Source: Candidatus Gastranaerophilales bacterium
GTDB lineage: Bacteria > Cyanobacteriota > Vampirovibrionia > Gastranaerophilales > Gastranaerophilaceae
DNA length: 64,000 nt
Assembly: GCA_944322545.1 (NCBI GenBank)
Contig: CALUPF010000010.1
Location: forward strand, 1-64,000
Direction: 5' to 3'
Shown: one piece after another, positions 54,448 through 63,081 of the stretch
How positions within the stretch are numbered: position 1 is the first letter of the stretch
Layout of the letters: the number at the start of each line of letters is the position of its first letter
Translations under genes and position numbers: made by a program
Notes under the pieces: generated by a model
Databases searched by the model: none
Told to the model about the DNA's origin: nothing
The model's input: the letters and a program-made list of their open reading frames with translations, nothing else

Positions 54448-55650
54448 TTATTTATTATGTTTTGCTTCTAGTTCCTTTAATTCTCTTTGATATGGTGAGA
54501 TATTATTCAGTTTGAATATCACATCAGGAAGAACTTTTAAAACATAATCAATTTCTTCTTCTGTTGTAAATCTGCTTAAACTGAAACGAATGCTACCATG
54601 CAATGCTTCAAAAGGTACGCCCATTGATTTTAGAACGTGGCTAGGCTCTAAGCTACCTGATGTACACGCACTACCTGAGCTTGCACAGATACCTAAATCA
54701 CTTAAATGAAGAAGTATCAATTCTCCTTCAATATACTGAAAACCAATGTTTGTTGTATTAGGAACTCTATTTGTTGTTGATCCGTTTACTTTTGCATTAT
54801 ATATAGTTTTCAATATTCCATTTTCAAGCTTATCACGAAGTCTTTTCACTTCAGTCATTTCATAGTCCATAGCCTTTTGAGCAAGCTCACAAGCTTCACC
54901 CAAACCGATTATATAAGGAACATTTTCAGTACCTGCTCTTTTACCACGCTCCTGATGTCCACCAATTATGAATGCAGGCAATAGTGTTCCTGTTTTAACA
55001 AATAAAGCACCAATTCCCTTAGGTGCGTGTATTTTATGACCTGCAATAGTCATTAAATCGATATCTGTATTTTTAACATCCAGTGGAATTTTACCTGCAG
55101 CCTGTACTGCATCAACGTGGAATTTAATTTTAGGATTTTTTTGTTTAACAAGTCTAGCAGCCTTCTCAACAGGCAAAATGACACCTGTTTCGTTATTAGC
55201 GTACATCATTGAAACCAAGGCTGTGTCATCTGAAATAGCTTCACTTAATTCGTTCAAATCAAGATTACCCTTAGAATCAACGCTTAAATAAGTAACCGAA
55301 TAGCCTTGTTTTTCGAAGTATTTGAACAAATTTAAAACAGCAGGGTGTTCAATTTTTGTTGTAATAATATGCTTTTTATTTTTATTGGCTTCTAACACGC
55401 CGCGAATAGCCATATTATCGCCTTCTGAACCTGAGCCAGTAAAAATAATCTCTTTAGCATCGTTTGCACCAAAGAATTCTTTTACCTGCTCACGAGCTTT
55501 TGCAACTGCTTTTGAAACCTTTCCTCCAAATTCATGCATACTAGAAGGGTTTCCGTAATATTCGCAAAAATATGGTTTCATAACCTCAAATACTTTAGGA
55601 TCAACCATAGTTGTTGCATTATTATCTAAATAAACTACTTTTTCAGTCAT
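54448..55650 (-). CDS. nifS: Cysteine desulfurase NifS/IscS family
   Basis: This PLP enzyme removes sulfur from cysteine for Fe-S cluster assembly. The 400 residues fit. The PLP lysine is Lys206 (TIAGHKIHAPKG) and the catalytic Cys is Cys329 in SSGSACTSGSLEPSHVL. EHPAVLNLFKY and YANNETG are other family motifs. It starts 2 bases after the stop of nifU, so the two form an operon; sulfur passes to the scaffold. Confidence 0.97.
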   Translation of the reverse strand: MTEKVVYLDNNATTMVDPKVFEVMKPYFCEYYGNPSSMHEFGGKVSKAVAKAREQVKEFFGANDAKEIIFTGSGSEGDNMAIRGVLEANKNKKHIITTKIEHPAVLNLFKYFEKQGYSVTYLSVDSKGNLDLNELSEAISDDTALVSMMYANNETGVILPVEKAARLVKQKNPKIKFHVDAVQAAGKIPLDVKNTDIDLMTIAGHKIHAPKGIGALFVKTGTLLPAFIIGGHQERGKRAGTENVPYIIGLGEACELAQKAMDYEMTEVKRLRDKLENGILKTIYNAKVNGSTTNRVPNTTNIGFQYIEGELILLHLSDLGICASSGSACTSGSLEPSHVLKSMGVPFEALHGSIRFSLSRFTTEEEIDYVLKVLPDVIFKLNNISPYQRELKELEAKHNK

Positions 55651-55652
55651 AT

Positions 55653-56474
55653 TTATACCTCAACAACTTCAATATCAGGAGAAATATGCTCCTTCAATGA
55701 AGCTTCAACAAAATTTTTCAATGTATTAGATGAAAACTTACAAGACTTACACATTCCTTTTAAAGATACATAAATCTTGTTTTCTTTAACATCAACCAGT
55801 TCAATATCTCCACCATCTTTTCTTAATTCTGGAGCAATATGTTTTTCTATAACATTATTAACCTTTAAAACAAGTTGCGTTACAGACATGTTTTTAATAT
55901 CTACTTTTTCTTTTTTCTTTTGAATTTCATCAATAATTTTTTGAATAGCAACGTGACATTGACCGCACGCACCACCTGCTTTTGTATAATTCATAACATC
56001 TTCTAAATCAGTAAGATTGTTCTGCTCAATAGCTTCTCTCAATGTATTTTCAGTGACGTGATAACATTTGCATATGATTTTTTCGTCACAATGCATATTC
56101 ACATCTTCGCCTTTGTAATTAGCAATTGCTGCTTCTAAGGCTTCATGTCCCATAACAGAACAGTGCATTTTTTCAGGTGGCAAACCACCTAAAGCATCAG
56201 CAATATCTTGGTTCGAAATCTTTTGAGCTTCTTCTATTGTTTTGCCTTTTAACATCTCAGTTAAAATACTAGAAGATGCAACTGCAGAACCACAGCCGAA
56301 AGTCTGAAATTTTGCATCTGTGATTATGCCATTATCATCAACTTTTAAATATAATTTCAATGCATCACCACAAACCAAAGAACCTGCTTCACCAACAGCA
56401 GAAGGGTTTTCCATCTCACCAACATTTCTTGGATTTTTGTAATGATCCATTACTTTTTCTGTATATTCCCACAT
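55653..56474 (-). CDS. nifU: Fe-S cluster scaffold NifU
   Basis: The 273 residues have the full three-domain NifU layout. The IscU-like domain carries Cys35, Cys61 and Cys105. A central [2Fe-2S] ferredoxin/BFD-like domain has Cys135, Cys137, Cys170 and Cys173. The C-terminal Nfu domain has Cys242 and Cys245 (CKSC). AAGGAAATAG precedes the ATG. No nitrogenase genes are visible, so this is a general Fe-S system. Confidence 0.97.
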   Translation of the reverse strand: MWEYTEKVMDHYKNPRNVGEMENPSAVGEAGSLVCGDALKLYLKVDDNGIITDAKFQTFGCGSAVASSSILTEMLKGKTIEEAQKISNQDIADALGGLPPEKMHCSVMGHEALEAAIANYKGEDVNMHCDEKIICKCYHVTENTLREAIEQNNLTDLEDVMNYTKAGGACGQCHVAIQKIIDEIQKKKEKVDIKNMSVTQLVLKVNNVIEKHIAPELRKDGGDIELVDVKENKIYVSLKGMCKSCKFSSNTLKNFVEASLKEHISPDIEVVEV

Positions 56475-56596: not shown

Positions 56597-57652
56597 CTAT
56601 ATTCTTTTTTGTGTATCTACATCAAAAAACAAAAAGTCATTTGTATTAAAGCGTAGTATAATATTATCGTCAAACTGTTTTTGTGCATCCACTTTAGCTG
56701 AACATTTAGCATTATTAACGTTAAAATAAACTATTTTTTCACTGCCAAGCATTTCTGAAATATCAACAGGTACAGTAAATTCATAGTTATTATCCAATAA
56801 ATCCATCTTTTCAGGACGAATGCCAACAATAACTCTAGTTCTAGAGCCTATCAAAGCCTTTTGATTGTCAGAAAGAGATATTACATAATCATTAAATTTA
56901 ATGTTTCCATCTTCAACACTGCATTCTATGAAATTCATAGAAGGAGAACCTAAAAAACCACCAACGAAAACATTTGCAGGCTCATAATAAATTTTTTCAG
57001 GCTCATCTACCTGTTGAATAACTCCCTTATCTAATACGACGATTCTATCACCCATCGTAAGAGCTTCTGTTTGGTCGTGTGTTACATATATAAAAGTAGT
57101 CTGCAATTTTTCATGAAGTTTTTTGATTTCTGAGCGCATCTGAACCCTAAGTTTTGCATCCAAATTAGACAATGGCTCATCCATCAAAAACACTTTAGGA
57201 CTTCTTACAATTGCACGACCTAAAGCAACACGCTGTCTTTGACCGCCTGAAAGCTGTTTAGGTTTTCTATCTAAATACTCTGTAAGATTTAAAATCTCAG
57301 CAGCTTCTTTCACTTTTTTATCTATCTCATCCTTTTTGAAATTTCTCATTTTCAAAGGAAAAGCAATATTTTCATAAACTGACATGTGAGGGTATAAAGC
57401 ATAGCTTTGAAATACAAAAGCAATGTCTCTATCTTTTGGGTGAACATTATTTACACATTTATCGCCAATATAAATCTCTCCTGATGTTATATCTTCTAGA
57501 CCTGCAATCATTCTTAAAATTGTAGACTTACCACATCCAGAAGATCCGACTAAAACAAGAAACTCCTTGTCTTTAATTTCTAAAGACACGTCATTTATTA
57601 TTGTTTTTGAGTCATATTTTTTAACTACATTTTTAAGAGTTACATTAGCCAT
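56597..57652 (-). CDS. Sugar-type ABC transporter ATPase (MsmK/UgpC family), orphan
   Basis: This 351-residue cytoplasmic ATPase drives CUT1 carbohydrate importers in its family. It has Walker A GSSGCGKST (36-44), the Q-loop region AFVFQSYALYPHMSV, signature LSGGQRQRVALGRAI, and Walker B VFLMDEPLSNLDAKLR. A C-terminal OB/TOBE regulatory domain follows (about 240-350, VIVGIRPEKMDLL). AAGGG lies upstream of the ATG. No permease or binding protein is adjacent, so it may serve several importers elsewhere, as MsmK does. Confidence 0.94.
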   Translation of the reverse strand: MANVTLKNVVKKYDSKTIINDVSLEIKDKEFLVLVGSSGCGKSTILRMIAGLEDITSGEIYIGDKCVNNVHPKDRDIAFVFQSYALYPHMSVYENIAFPLKMRNFKKDEIDKKVKEAAEILNLTEYLDRKPKQLSGGQRQRVALGRAIVRSPKVFLMDEPLSNLDAKLRVQMRSEIKKLHEKLQTTFIYVTHDQTEALTMGDRIVVLDKGVIQQVDEPEKIYYEPANVFVGGFLGSPSMNFIECSVEDGNIKFNDYVISLSDNQKALIGSRTRVIVGIRPEKMDLLDNNYEFTVPVDISEMLGSEKIVYFNVNNAKCSAKVDAQKQFDDNIILRFNTNDFLFFDVDTQKRI

Positions 57653-57676: not shown

Positions 57677-58825
57677 CTATAAACTAAATTTTTCAATAGG
57701 AATAATAAAGCAAAAACTGCTGCCTTTCATAGACTCTGATTCTACCCAAATTTTCCCTTTCAAAAGTCTAACTAGGTTGTAGACAATGCCTAAAGACAAG
57801 CTTTTAGGAGCAGCTTTTTTAGCAATATATTTTTCTATATTTGCATACGGATCAAAAATATTATTTAATTCAGGTTCAGGTATACCAGAACCTGTGTCAT
57901 TAACCTTAATCATGAGATAAGCTTTATCAGGAGTGTTTTCTGTAACATTGAATCCTGCAATTTCAAGATATTCTTTATCCGGATGACTAACAACAACCTG
58001 AACTGAACCTACATCTGTATTAGTGATAGCATTATCAACAAGAGTTTTTACAATCTGCTTCAAAACATTTTCATCTGAATACAATGTTCTTTTAGCAAGA
58101 CTATTTAAATCAAAATTCAAAATCAACTTTTTCTCATCTGCAACTGGTTTCATTTCATTAAATAATGAAGTCATTAAATTAACAAAATCAAAATTCTTAA
58201 ACTCATAGTCATACAAACCTGATTCCAATTTTGAATATTCAATCAATCCATTCACAAGCTCTAAAAGCTGCATTGAATTTTTGTTAATAATTTTCAAATA
58301 CTTTTCTTGCTTTTCATTAACGTCGCCGCCTAAACCTTCTAAAATAGCTTGAGAAAAGCCATTTATTGAGTGAATAGGCGAAGTTAATTCACCTGAGATT
58401 TTAGTCAAAAAAGTATTTTTGTTTTTAGTCAATTTATTCAAATACTCATGCTCAAACAAAAGCTTGTTAAGCATTTTTTGACTGTTAGTCACATCTCTTA
58501 TTGAAACAATTATTTTTTCTTCGTCATCATAATATTCTGATGCTTTAACTTCTAAGAACAAATCCTCATCAAGACTAAGCTTTGAACGAACAACAACCGA
58601 GTCTTTGGATTTAGAAAGTCCGCTAACTAAATTAAATCCACCATCAAAAATGTCCAGCAATTCAATATTATCTAACTCTTCGCCAGAAATTTTTAATAAA
58701 TTCAAAAGATTCTCATTTGCATAAAGAATCTCTCCAGTCATAGAAACAACTATCACAGCTTCAGGATAAGAATTTAATACATTACCTGACTGTTTCTTTT
58801 TAAATAAGAAAGAAAATATATTCAT
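57677..58825 (-). CDS. PAS-domain histidine-kinase-like protein lacking the phospho-acceptor His
   Basis: The 382 residues have a short hydrophobic/basic N-terminus, a PAS domain (about 15-115, AVIVVSMTGEILYANENLL), a dimerisation helix and a HATPase domain. The H-box reads KISGELTSPIHSI at 142-154, where the family has SHELRTPL; Gly145 stands where the phosphorylated His should be. The N-box (LVDNAITNT) and G1 box (VNDTGSGIPE) are kept, while the G2 region is altered (PKSLSLGIV). ATP binding is plausible but self-phosphorylation is not. No response regulator is adjacent. Confidence 0.9.
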   Translation of the reverse strand: MNIFSFLFKKKQSGNVLNSYPEAVIVVSMTGEILYANENLLNLLKISGEELDNIELLDIFDGGFNLVSGLSKSKDSVVVRSKLSLDEDLFLEVKASEYYDDEEKIIVSIRDVTNSQKMLNKLLFEHEYLNKLTKNKNTFLTKISGELTSPIHSINGFSQAILEGLGGDVNEKQEKYLKIINKNSMQLLELVNGLIEYSKLESGLYDYEFKNFDFVNLMTSLFNEMKPVADEKKLILNFDLNSLAKRTLYSDENVLKQIVKTLVDNAITNTDVGSVQVVVSHPDKEYLEIAGFNVTENTPDKAYLMIKVNDTGSGIPEPELNNIFDPYANIEKYIAKKAAPKSLSLGIVYNLVRLLKGKIWVESESMKGSSFCFIIPIEKFSL

Positions 58826-59969: not shown

Positions 59970-60323
59970 ATGAAAATCAAGGATGTTGACAAAGTTTGCA
60001 TTGTTGATATAGCAGGGAACGCAATATCTAAAGCAGACCTCATAGAATTAAAAAAGCTTTTTGAAAAAAAAGCTTTCAAAAAGCGTATCGGAATAAATAT
60101 GAAAAACGTTTTAGAGATAGAACATAATTTCTTAGAATTTCTAGAACGTTGTAGCGAAAAACATAAGCTATCAATATACAACGTAAATAACGAAGTTTAT
60201 CTTATGTTGTTCATTTTGAGATATGACAAATATGTGAATATATATCTAAATGAAGAAGATTTTTACAACGATAAAAAATGCATAGTATACAGAAGACTTA
60301 AATTACTCAAAAAAGCTGCATAA
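59970..60323 (+). CDS. STAS-like domain protein
   Basis: The 117-residue protein has the alternating strand-helix pattern of a STAS fold: VCIVDIAGN, then ADLIELKKLFEKKA, GINMKNVLEIEHNFLEFLER, and KLSIYNVNNEVYLMLFILRY. STAS proteins such as anti-sigma antagonists are switched by Ser phosphorylation; the usual Asp-Ser in the switch loop is not present (MKNVLEIEH). AGGG is 6 bases before the ATG. A partner kinase is not adjacent, although a His-less kinase-like protein lies 1.1 kb upstream. Confidence 0.7.
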   Translation: MKIKDVDKVCIVDIAGNAISKADLIELKKLFEKKAFKKRIGINMKNVLEIEHNFLEFLERCSEKHKLSIYNVNNEVYLMLFILRYDKYVNIYLNEEDFYNDKKCIVYRRLKLLKKAA

Positions 60324-62160: not shown

Positions 62161-63081
62161 CTATTTAGACATTTTATCATTTTTTTTATTGCTAACCTGT
62201 TTTTTAGTTTTTATTTTTATAAAATTAAAAACAGTTTTATTCTCTTCAACAAAATCCTCATCTTCATAGCCAAGAAGGATTTCTAAATCTTTTTTTAATA
62301 AAGTTATATCATCATACTTTTTCAATGAGCCATCCAACGCAATTGAAACATCACCAGTTTCTTCTGAAACAACAAGACAAGCTGAATCAGAAACCTCACT
62401 CATACCAATTGCAGCTCTATGACGAGTTCCATACTTCCAGCTCAATTTAGGGTCTTCTGTCAGCGGCAATAAAACACCTGCTGATCTAATCGTGTCACCT
62501 TCAATCACAACAGCGCCATCATGCAATGGCGTATTCGGATGAAATATAGTCAATAACAACTCAGTAGAAACTATAGCATCAAGCTGCGTTCCAACATCAG
62601 AATAGCTATTTACATCATCTTCTCTTTCTAGAACCATCAAAGCACCGGTTCTAGTTTTAGAAAGATATTTAACAGTTTCAATCAGTTCTTTTAAAACATT
62701 AACTTTTTGTGTTTCATTAGGACTTCTTTTACCAAAATGGTTATGAAAGAAATTTGACTGTCCTAAATATCCAAGAAATTTTCTTATTTCAGGCTGAAAA
62801 ATGATAACAGCACCAAACATTATGACACTGACCATTGTCCTTAAAAACACACCTAATATAAGTAAATTGAATTTAATTAATATTTCAGAGAATAACCAAG
62901 CCAAAAGTAAAATAAAAATACCTTTTACTAGCTTTTCTGACTGAGTTCCTTTGATAAATTTTTGATATATCAAAAGTAAAAAAGCAGCAATAATAAGGAC
63001 TTCCAAAACATTTACCCAAGTAAATGACCAATGAATAGCCTTTATTTGACTCAATAGTATGTCTTTTATTTCTCCTATCAC
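62161..63081 (-). CDS. cdaA: Diadenylate cyclase CdaA
   Basis: CdaA makes cyclic di-AMP, a signal for wall and ion balance. The start is a GTG at 63081 with AGGA upstream. The 306 residues have three membrane helices (about 21-40, 52-72, 75-96), then the DAC domain with DGA at 188-190 (LHDGAVVIEG) and RHR at 220-222 (GTRHRAAIGMSE), the two catalytic motifs. The C-terminal tail is long and basic. Upstream lies lysA in the same direction; cdaR and glmM, its usual neighbours in Firmicutes, are not present. Confidence 0.95.
   Translation of the reverse strand: MIGEIKDILLSQIKAIHWSFTWVNVLEVLIIAAFLLLIYQKFIKGTQSEKLVKGIFILLLAWLFSEILIKFNLLILGVFLRTMVSVIMFGAVIIFQPEIRKFLGYLGQSNFFHNHFGKRSPNETQKVNVLKELIETVKYLSKTRTGALMVLEREDDVNSYSDVGTQLDAIVSTELLLTIFHPNTPLHDGAVVIEGDTIRSAGVLLPLTEDPKLSWKYGTRHRAAIGMSEVSDSACLVVSEETGDVSIALDGSLKKYDDITLLKKDLEILLGYEDEDFVEENKTVFNFIKIKTKKQVSNKKNDKMSK

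Follow-up and report, generated by a model that had tools for sequence, protein, structure and literature searches.

A gene on the minus strand of a Candidatus Gastranaerophilales contig (57677..58825) encodes a protein with the build of a sensor histidine kinase and with glycine in place of the phospho-acceptor histidine. This raises the question of how a protein predicted to lack self-phosphorylation at the usual site might still act, and on which partner. Positions given here are those of the 64,000 nt stretch analysed (the window), which comes from a genome of 1.92 Mb in 53 contigs that is 86.8 % complete. The original prediction, which gave no strand for the gene, was that the protein would work by another route, such as inhibiting or scaffolding a true kinase.

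Domain organization of the kinase-like protein

The reading frame, complement(57677..58825), is intact, with 382 codons and no internal stop, and the 382 aa product comprises PAS, DHp (HisKA) and CA (HATPase_c) domains. In Pfam searches HATPase_c (2.3e-16) and HisKA (3.3e-11) both exceeded their gathering cut-offs. The PAS_9 match (1.3e-4) fell under its cut-off in the window protein and above it in orthologue L093 (32.7 bits, cut-off 27). The AF2 model (mean pLDDT 88.8) has a PAS-like alpha/beta domain followed by a long two-helix DHp and then the CA domain. On the minus strand, the PAS domain (residues 14–115, from Pfam and the AF2 model) occupies 58481..58786, the DHp two-helix region (residues 133–203, from the AF2 model) 58217..58429 and the CA domain (residues 206–379, from Pfam) 57689..58210. 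The first 13 residues (MNIFSFLFKKKQS; 58787..58825, minus strand) form a short helix with a hydrophobic/basic pattern that most orthologues retain; this may be a peripheral membrane anchor, in a segment where model confidence is low.

The H-box reads K-I-S-G145-E-L-T-S-P, and an ungapped alignment to HK853 places Gly145 (codon 145, 58391..58393, minus strand) on the acceptor histidine, in agreement with the original prediction. As also predicted, the protein retains Asn265 of the N-box and D310-x-G312-x-G314 of the G1 motif, with the G2 region altered to SLSLG where 'GLGL' is expected. The closest compact structural match found with Foldseek was the kinase region of RetS (TM 0.85, normalised by target). 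The DHp and CA folds of a catalytic HisKA kinase are therefore present by Pfam, AF2 and Foldseek, but the acceptor histidine is absent. A kinase fold that lacks this residue and is conserved in that state is classed by sequence as a histidine pseudokinase, although profile-based annotation would label the protein as an ordinary sensor kinase.

Loss of the acceptor histidine across the family

The close relatives of the pseudokinase are encoded by metagenome-assembled Candidatus Gastranaerophilales. Of 191 Gastranaerophilaceae genomes, 178 (at least 93 %) contain an orthologue matched at E <= 1e-40, and six of the remaining 13 yielded one, complete or partial, in profile searches. Amongst 141 distinct orthologues with the acceptor column, the residue is Asn in 78, Gly in 35, Ser in 10, Thr in eight, His in five, Pro in two, and Ile, Asp and Glu in one each. 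Histidine is absent from 136 of the 141 and, at one sequence per genus, from 37 of 38 genera, whereas all 15 control histidine kinases (14 from the same family and one from Nitrospirae) possess it. The expectation of a conserved PAS-bearing, kinase-like protein that would not phosphorylate itself on the usual histidine was thus borne out by the alignment; the non-histidine state is what is conserved, rather than glycine itself, asparagine being commoner. A rare variant or a sequencing error can be dismissed, as independently assembled genomes show Gly, Asn, Ser or Thr at this position.

Orthologues with histidine at this site, which had been named as grounds for abandoning the prediction, number only five: L070, L117 and L118 (g10), L137 (g13) and L148 (g35). 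All five lack the N-box Asn, and they probably represent three independent late reversions. The ATP site has also degenerated. The N-box Asn is retained in 36 of 142 orthologues and lost in 106, and the G1 Asp is retained in 103; the combination of His, N-box Asn and three G1 residues occurs in none of the 142, compared with 15/15 control kinases. Because of these losses, ATP binding cannot be called conserved in the family, and this part of the original prediction applies to the window protein, with its intact N- and G1-boxes, but not to its orthologues generally.

Parsimony on the tree places Asn at the acceptor position of the root, with 25 changes; this ancestral state is to be taken with caution, since the sequences of the family form a clade with modest support (0.605). 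A His-bearing, ATPase-linked ancestor was not found outside the Gastranaerophilaceae, the best matches in the other families of the class being mostly large generic kinases. The Gastranaerophilaceae protein appears to be an ancient histidine pseudokinase, in which the acceptor histidine was lost early and the ATP site is eroding. To judge from its sequences, phosphotransfer has been lost.

Could the protein still be a kinase, through another residue or phosphorylated in trans by a partner? Genus g1 and its relatives do retain the N-box Asn and much of G1. However, the best histidine column anywhere in the orthologue alignment reaches 35 %, and hence no substitute acceptor histidine can be made out; glycine cannot accept phosphate, and the N-box Asn has also gone from most members of the family. 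Continued kinase activity is very improbable.

Selection and constraint

The erosion of catalytic residues, and a divergence faster than that of the neighbouring ABC ATPase (approximately 35–40 % identity against approximately 70 % at equal distance), might indicate a decaying pseudogene, or a neutral passenger ahead of an important ATPase gene. Against this, orthologue reading frames are full-length and open in nearly all cases, residues outside the catalytic set, N37 and Y176 for example, are invariant, and the median dN/dS over 16 independent close pairs is 0.055, indicative of purifying selection. These are simple Nei–Gojobori counts, with synonymous changes near saturation in several pairs; with this caveat, the pseudogene explanation was rejected on the ratio and is scarcely credible.

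Constraint is unevenly distributed. In the same 16 pairs, median dN/dS is 0.048 for PAS, 0.027 for DHp and 0.071 for CA, and conservation by entropy is likewise highest in the DHp (approximately 1.4 bits, compared with 2.2–2.4 elsewhere). Within it K175, Y176, G164, G167, I179 and E201 are almost fixed though the acceptor varies. Over 140 natural variants, whose acceptor drifts while the DHp helices are the most constrained part, are thus available from the family, and they suggest that the needs of docking are separable from those of catalysis.

The sites matching HK853 A268, A271, T275, V294 and D297, the positions substituted in 4jas, a structure with a rewired interface, have a mean entropy of 0.45 bits, compared with 1.37 for the DHp. 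Such conservation was equalled by 0.4 % of random draws, but two of 42 shifted DHp registers scored lower, and for this reason conservation of the receiver-docking face is suggestive only.

Linkage to a UgpC/MsmX-type ABC ATPase gene

Directly downstream of the pseudokinase gene, on the same strand, lies a gene for a 351 aa UgpC/MsmX-type ABC ATPase (56597..57652, minus strand), a linkage absent from the original prediction and near-universal in the family. In the window, 24 nt separate the pseudokinase stop codon from the ATPase gene, an AGGGTG Shine–Dalgarno-like run lies shortly 5' of the ATG, and no terminator-like site was found in the pseudokinase–ATPase region. The next same-strand gene is a UgpC/MsmX-type ATPase in 108 of 110 testable loci (those long enough to judge), and in 39 of the 41 larger loci. 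With starts picked mechanically, the ATPase mostly begins no more than 35 nt from the pseudokinase stop, and the two genes overlap by at least 8 nt in about one-third of the larger loci. Any other neighbour is shared by at most 14 of the 41. The two genes are co-inherited and probably co-transcribed; adjacency is no proof of contact between their products.

The ATPase scored 477 bits against the NCBIfam UgpC profile NF008653 (cut-off 432). MsmX of B. subtilis (PDB 6yir) is amongst its best solved relatives (392.7 bits over the full length), and alignment to 6yir reveals counterparts of all four residues, D77, R104, E110 and K154 (MsmX numbering), tied to multitask ATPases (PMC7658222). A UgpC-type ATPase was found once in each of the 159 high-quality genomes. 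In the window genome, a survey by profile located sugar-type permeases as a pair on contig 43 and singly on contigs 13 and 33; no ATPase adjoins them, the ATPase survey covering the UgpC type. Inspection of neighbouring ORFs in 20 other genomes recognised no UgpC-like gene beside contig-43-type permeases. One UgpC-type ATPase was thus found per genome, alongside two sugar-type permease sets that lack an ATPase of their own. This suggests that the ATPase is probably the motor common to several sugar (CUT1) importers. It resembles MsmX in its full-length match, in the four signature residues and in being a single copy away from the permeases, but no pseudokinase partner is described for MsmX (PMC7658222).

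Within the Gastranaerophilaceae, the ATPase tree fits vertical inheritance, and in the examined genomes of the class's other families UgpC has no pseudokinase-like neighbour. The two genomes of genus g8 (98–99 % complete) encode the UgpC-type ATPase and lack the pseudokinase by profile search. This reflects either gene loss or branching before the gene's origin, and the ATPase tree (support 0.48) favours neither. The ATPase therefore has no strict need of the pseudokinase. At the two g8 loci (L202 and L203) the ATPase gene sits behind a DnaE-like gene.

A putative docking regulator of sugar import

Since the histidine has been lost family-wide, and yet selection is strong and the ATPase gene adjacent, regulation by binding rather than by phosphorylation is most likely. 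We propose, with a probability of approximately 55 %, that the pseudokinase is a docking regulator linking a two-component pathway to the motor of sugar import; we are much less sure of any single partner. The pseudokinase would be co-expressed with what is apparently the sole MsmX/UgpC-type ATPase of the cell. Its PAS domain may respond to the importer's state or to a signal in the cytosol or membrane. The DHp/CA dimer could then bind another protein and alter the state of that protein without transferring phosphate, which would coordinate sugar import with a two-component pathway. The pseudokinase could dock onto a receiver domain, onto a true kinase or onto the ATPase. On the signalling side a receiver is the likeliest, because the DHp docking face is among the most conserved parts of the protein; on the transport side the likeliest candidate is the MsmX-type ATPase, which the operon offers as an immediate candidate partner. 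A mechanism such as this would suggest that uncultured gut bacteria control sugar import via a phosphotransfer-dead sensor.

In a more specific form, put forward tentatively, the dead kinase would, throughout the family, regulate the ABC motor that the sugar importers share. Its PAS/DHp portion would read or control the ATPase and relay the state of sugar import to a response regulator purely by docking, with neither a PhoU-like adaptor nor phosphotransfer by the sensor. Signalling from a transporter ATPase to a PAS kinase has a precedent in PstB–PhoU–PhoR (PMC9239213), and docking of a receiver has one in DivL (PMC4211667), for which we propose a parallel here.

The pseudokinase might instead regulate the ABC ATPase alone, as a brake or activator of transport with no two-component partner. 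The ATPase is indeed its sole consistent genomic partner. This simpler arrangement does not by itself explain a conserved DHp face matching the receiver-docking surface, however, and g8 keeps the ATPase without the pseudokinase; we consider it unlikely.

The two-component genes of the source genome name no obvious partner. None of its 23 receiver matches is linked to the pseudokinase gene as a cognate response regulator, and no response regulator is consistently linked to the pseudokinase across the family. What looks like a single operon on contig 43 of the window genome (L220, 13786–18793) encodes a hybrid receiver–PAS–kinase and a LuxR-type response regulator, followed by a 332 aa protein with no match in Pfam and a permease pair resembling MalF/MalG. 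This order was found only in g1 and g19 amongst 20 other genomes, and two-component genes beside sugar permeases were accordingly rejected as a general link.

DHp heterodimers usually require close paralogy. This bears on whether the pseudokinase modulates a true histidine kinase by heterodimerization, in the manner of RetS, RocA or ChrS and as originally predicted. The approximately 10 other kinase matches in the genome provide potential partners, but no true kinase gene is linked and the nearest is just 31 % identical over the core. RetS is the best compact structural match, the RocA pseudokinase works through CovS (PMC7028121), and an evolved ChrS variant heterodimerizes with HrrS (PMC9491836). 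On balance, heterodimerization is rather unlikely.

The same docking surface could serve a dedicated response-regulator phosphatase, in which kinase activity has been lost, the DHp docks a phospho-receiver and the H+4 side chain hydrolyses the phosphate. At H+4, all 38 genera (33 Ser, three Thr and two Asn) and 137 of 141 sequences have one of Ser, Thr and Asn. CrdS H371A is kinase-dead yet phosphatase-active, H+4 alone being strictly needed (PMC3510030), and transmitter phosphatase activity is found in RetS (PMC5992135). Serine, however, lies outside the set tested in CrdS, where Asn is fully active, Thr partially so, and Gln, Asp and Ala are dead, and H+4 is Thr in the 15 control kinases. 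In CrdS the H+1 acid contributes to kinase but not to phosphatase activity, and its retention in 124 of 141 sequences is therefore no evidence for a phosphatase. The phosphatase activity of DrBphP requires ATP (PMC8292422), whereas ATP-site residues decay in the Gastranaerophilaceae orthologues. DivL does not accelerate phospho-receiver decay (PMC4211667). A phosphatase role seems doubtful, and docking without catalysis is preferred.

Comparison with known systems

Few histidine pseudokinases have been characterized, mostly as single cases. DivL of Caulobacter (PDB 4q20) shares the PAS–DHp–CA order, the absence of an acceptor histidine and a poor ATP site, but belongs to another phylum, has Tyr rather than Asn or Gly at the acceptor position and has no ABC ATPase partner. 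The match to the DivL chain (6.9e-6) ranks below many catalytic kinases, indicating that the two are not orthologous. RetS (Pseudomonas), RocA (Streptococcus) and the ChrS variant (Corynebacterium) are likewise kinase-like proteins, with other kinases or their receivers as targets; they differ in having a known partner kinase and no linked ABC ATPase gene, and RocA and RetS retain a putative acceptor histidine, unlike the Gastranaerophilaceae pseudokinase.

The best full-length profile matches were to PnpS (8.7e-48) and PhoR (1.8e-34). Both fall far short of the NCBIfam equivalog cut-offs (163 bits against 400 for PnpS and 119 against 334 for PhoR), and the protein is not assigned to either. 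PhoR/PnpS with PstB–PhoU is alike in its PAS–HisKA–HATPase order and in that a PAS kinase reads the ATPase of an ABC importer; PhoR is catalytic, however, pairs with PhoB and has PhoU as a go-between. Judged from these matches, the pseudokinase appears similar in kind to known histidine pseudokinases, yet an orthologue of none of those found here. The literature searched, with most subscription papers outside its scope, held no description of the Gastranaerophilaceae pseudokinase or of any pseudokinase joined to an MsmX-type ATPase.

Other genes in the window

A gene at 59970–60323 (plus strand) encodes a 117 aa protein with no Pfam or NCBIfam match, STAS-like by eye, with a counterpart at the corresponding position only in near relatives. 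Further along, 62161–63081 (minus strand) encodes a CdaA-type diadenylate cyclase with DAC and CdaA_N domains. At 54448–56474 (minus strand), a cysteine desulfurase gene adjoins one for a three-domain NifU, comprising NifU_N, a BFD-like 2Fe-2S domain and the NifU C-terminal domain.
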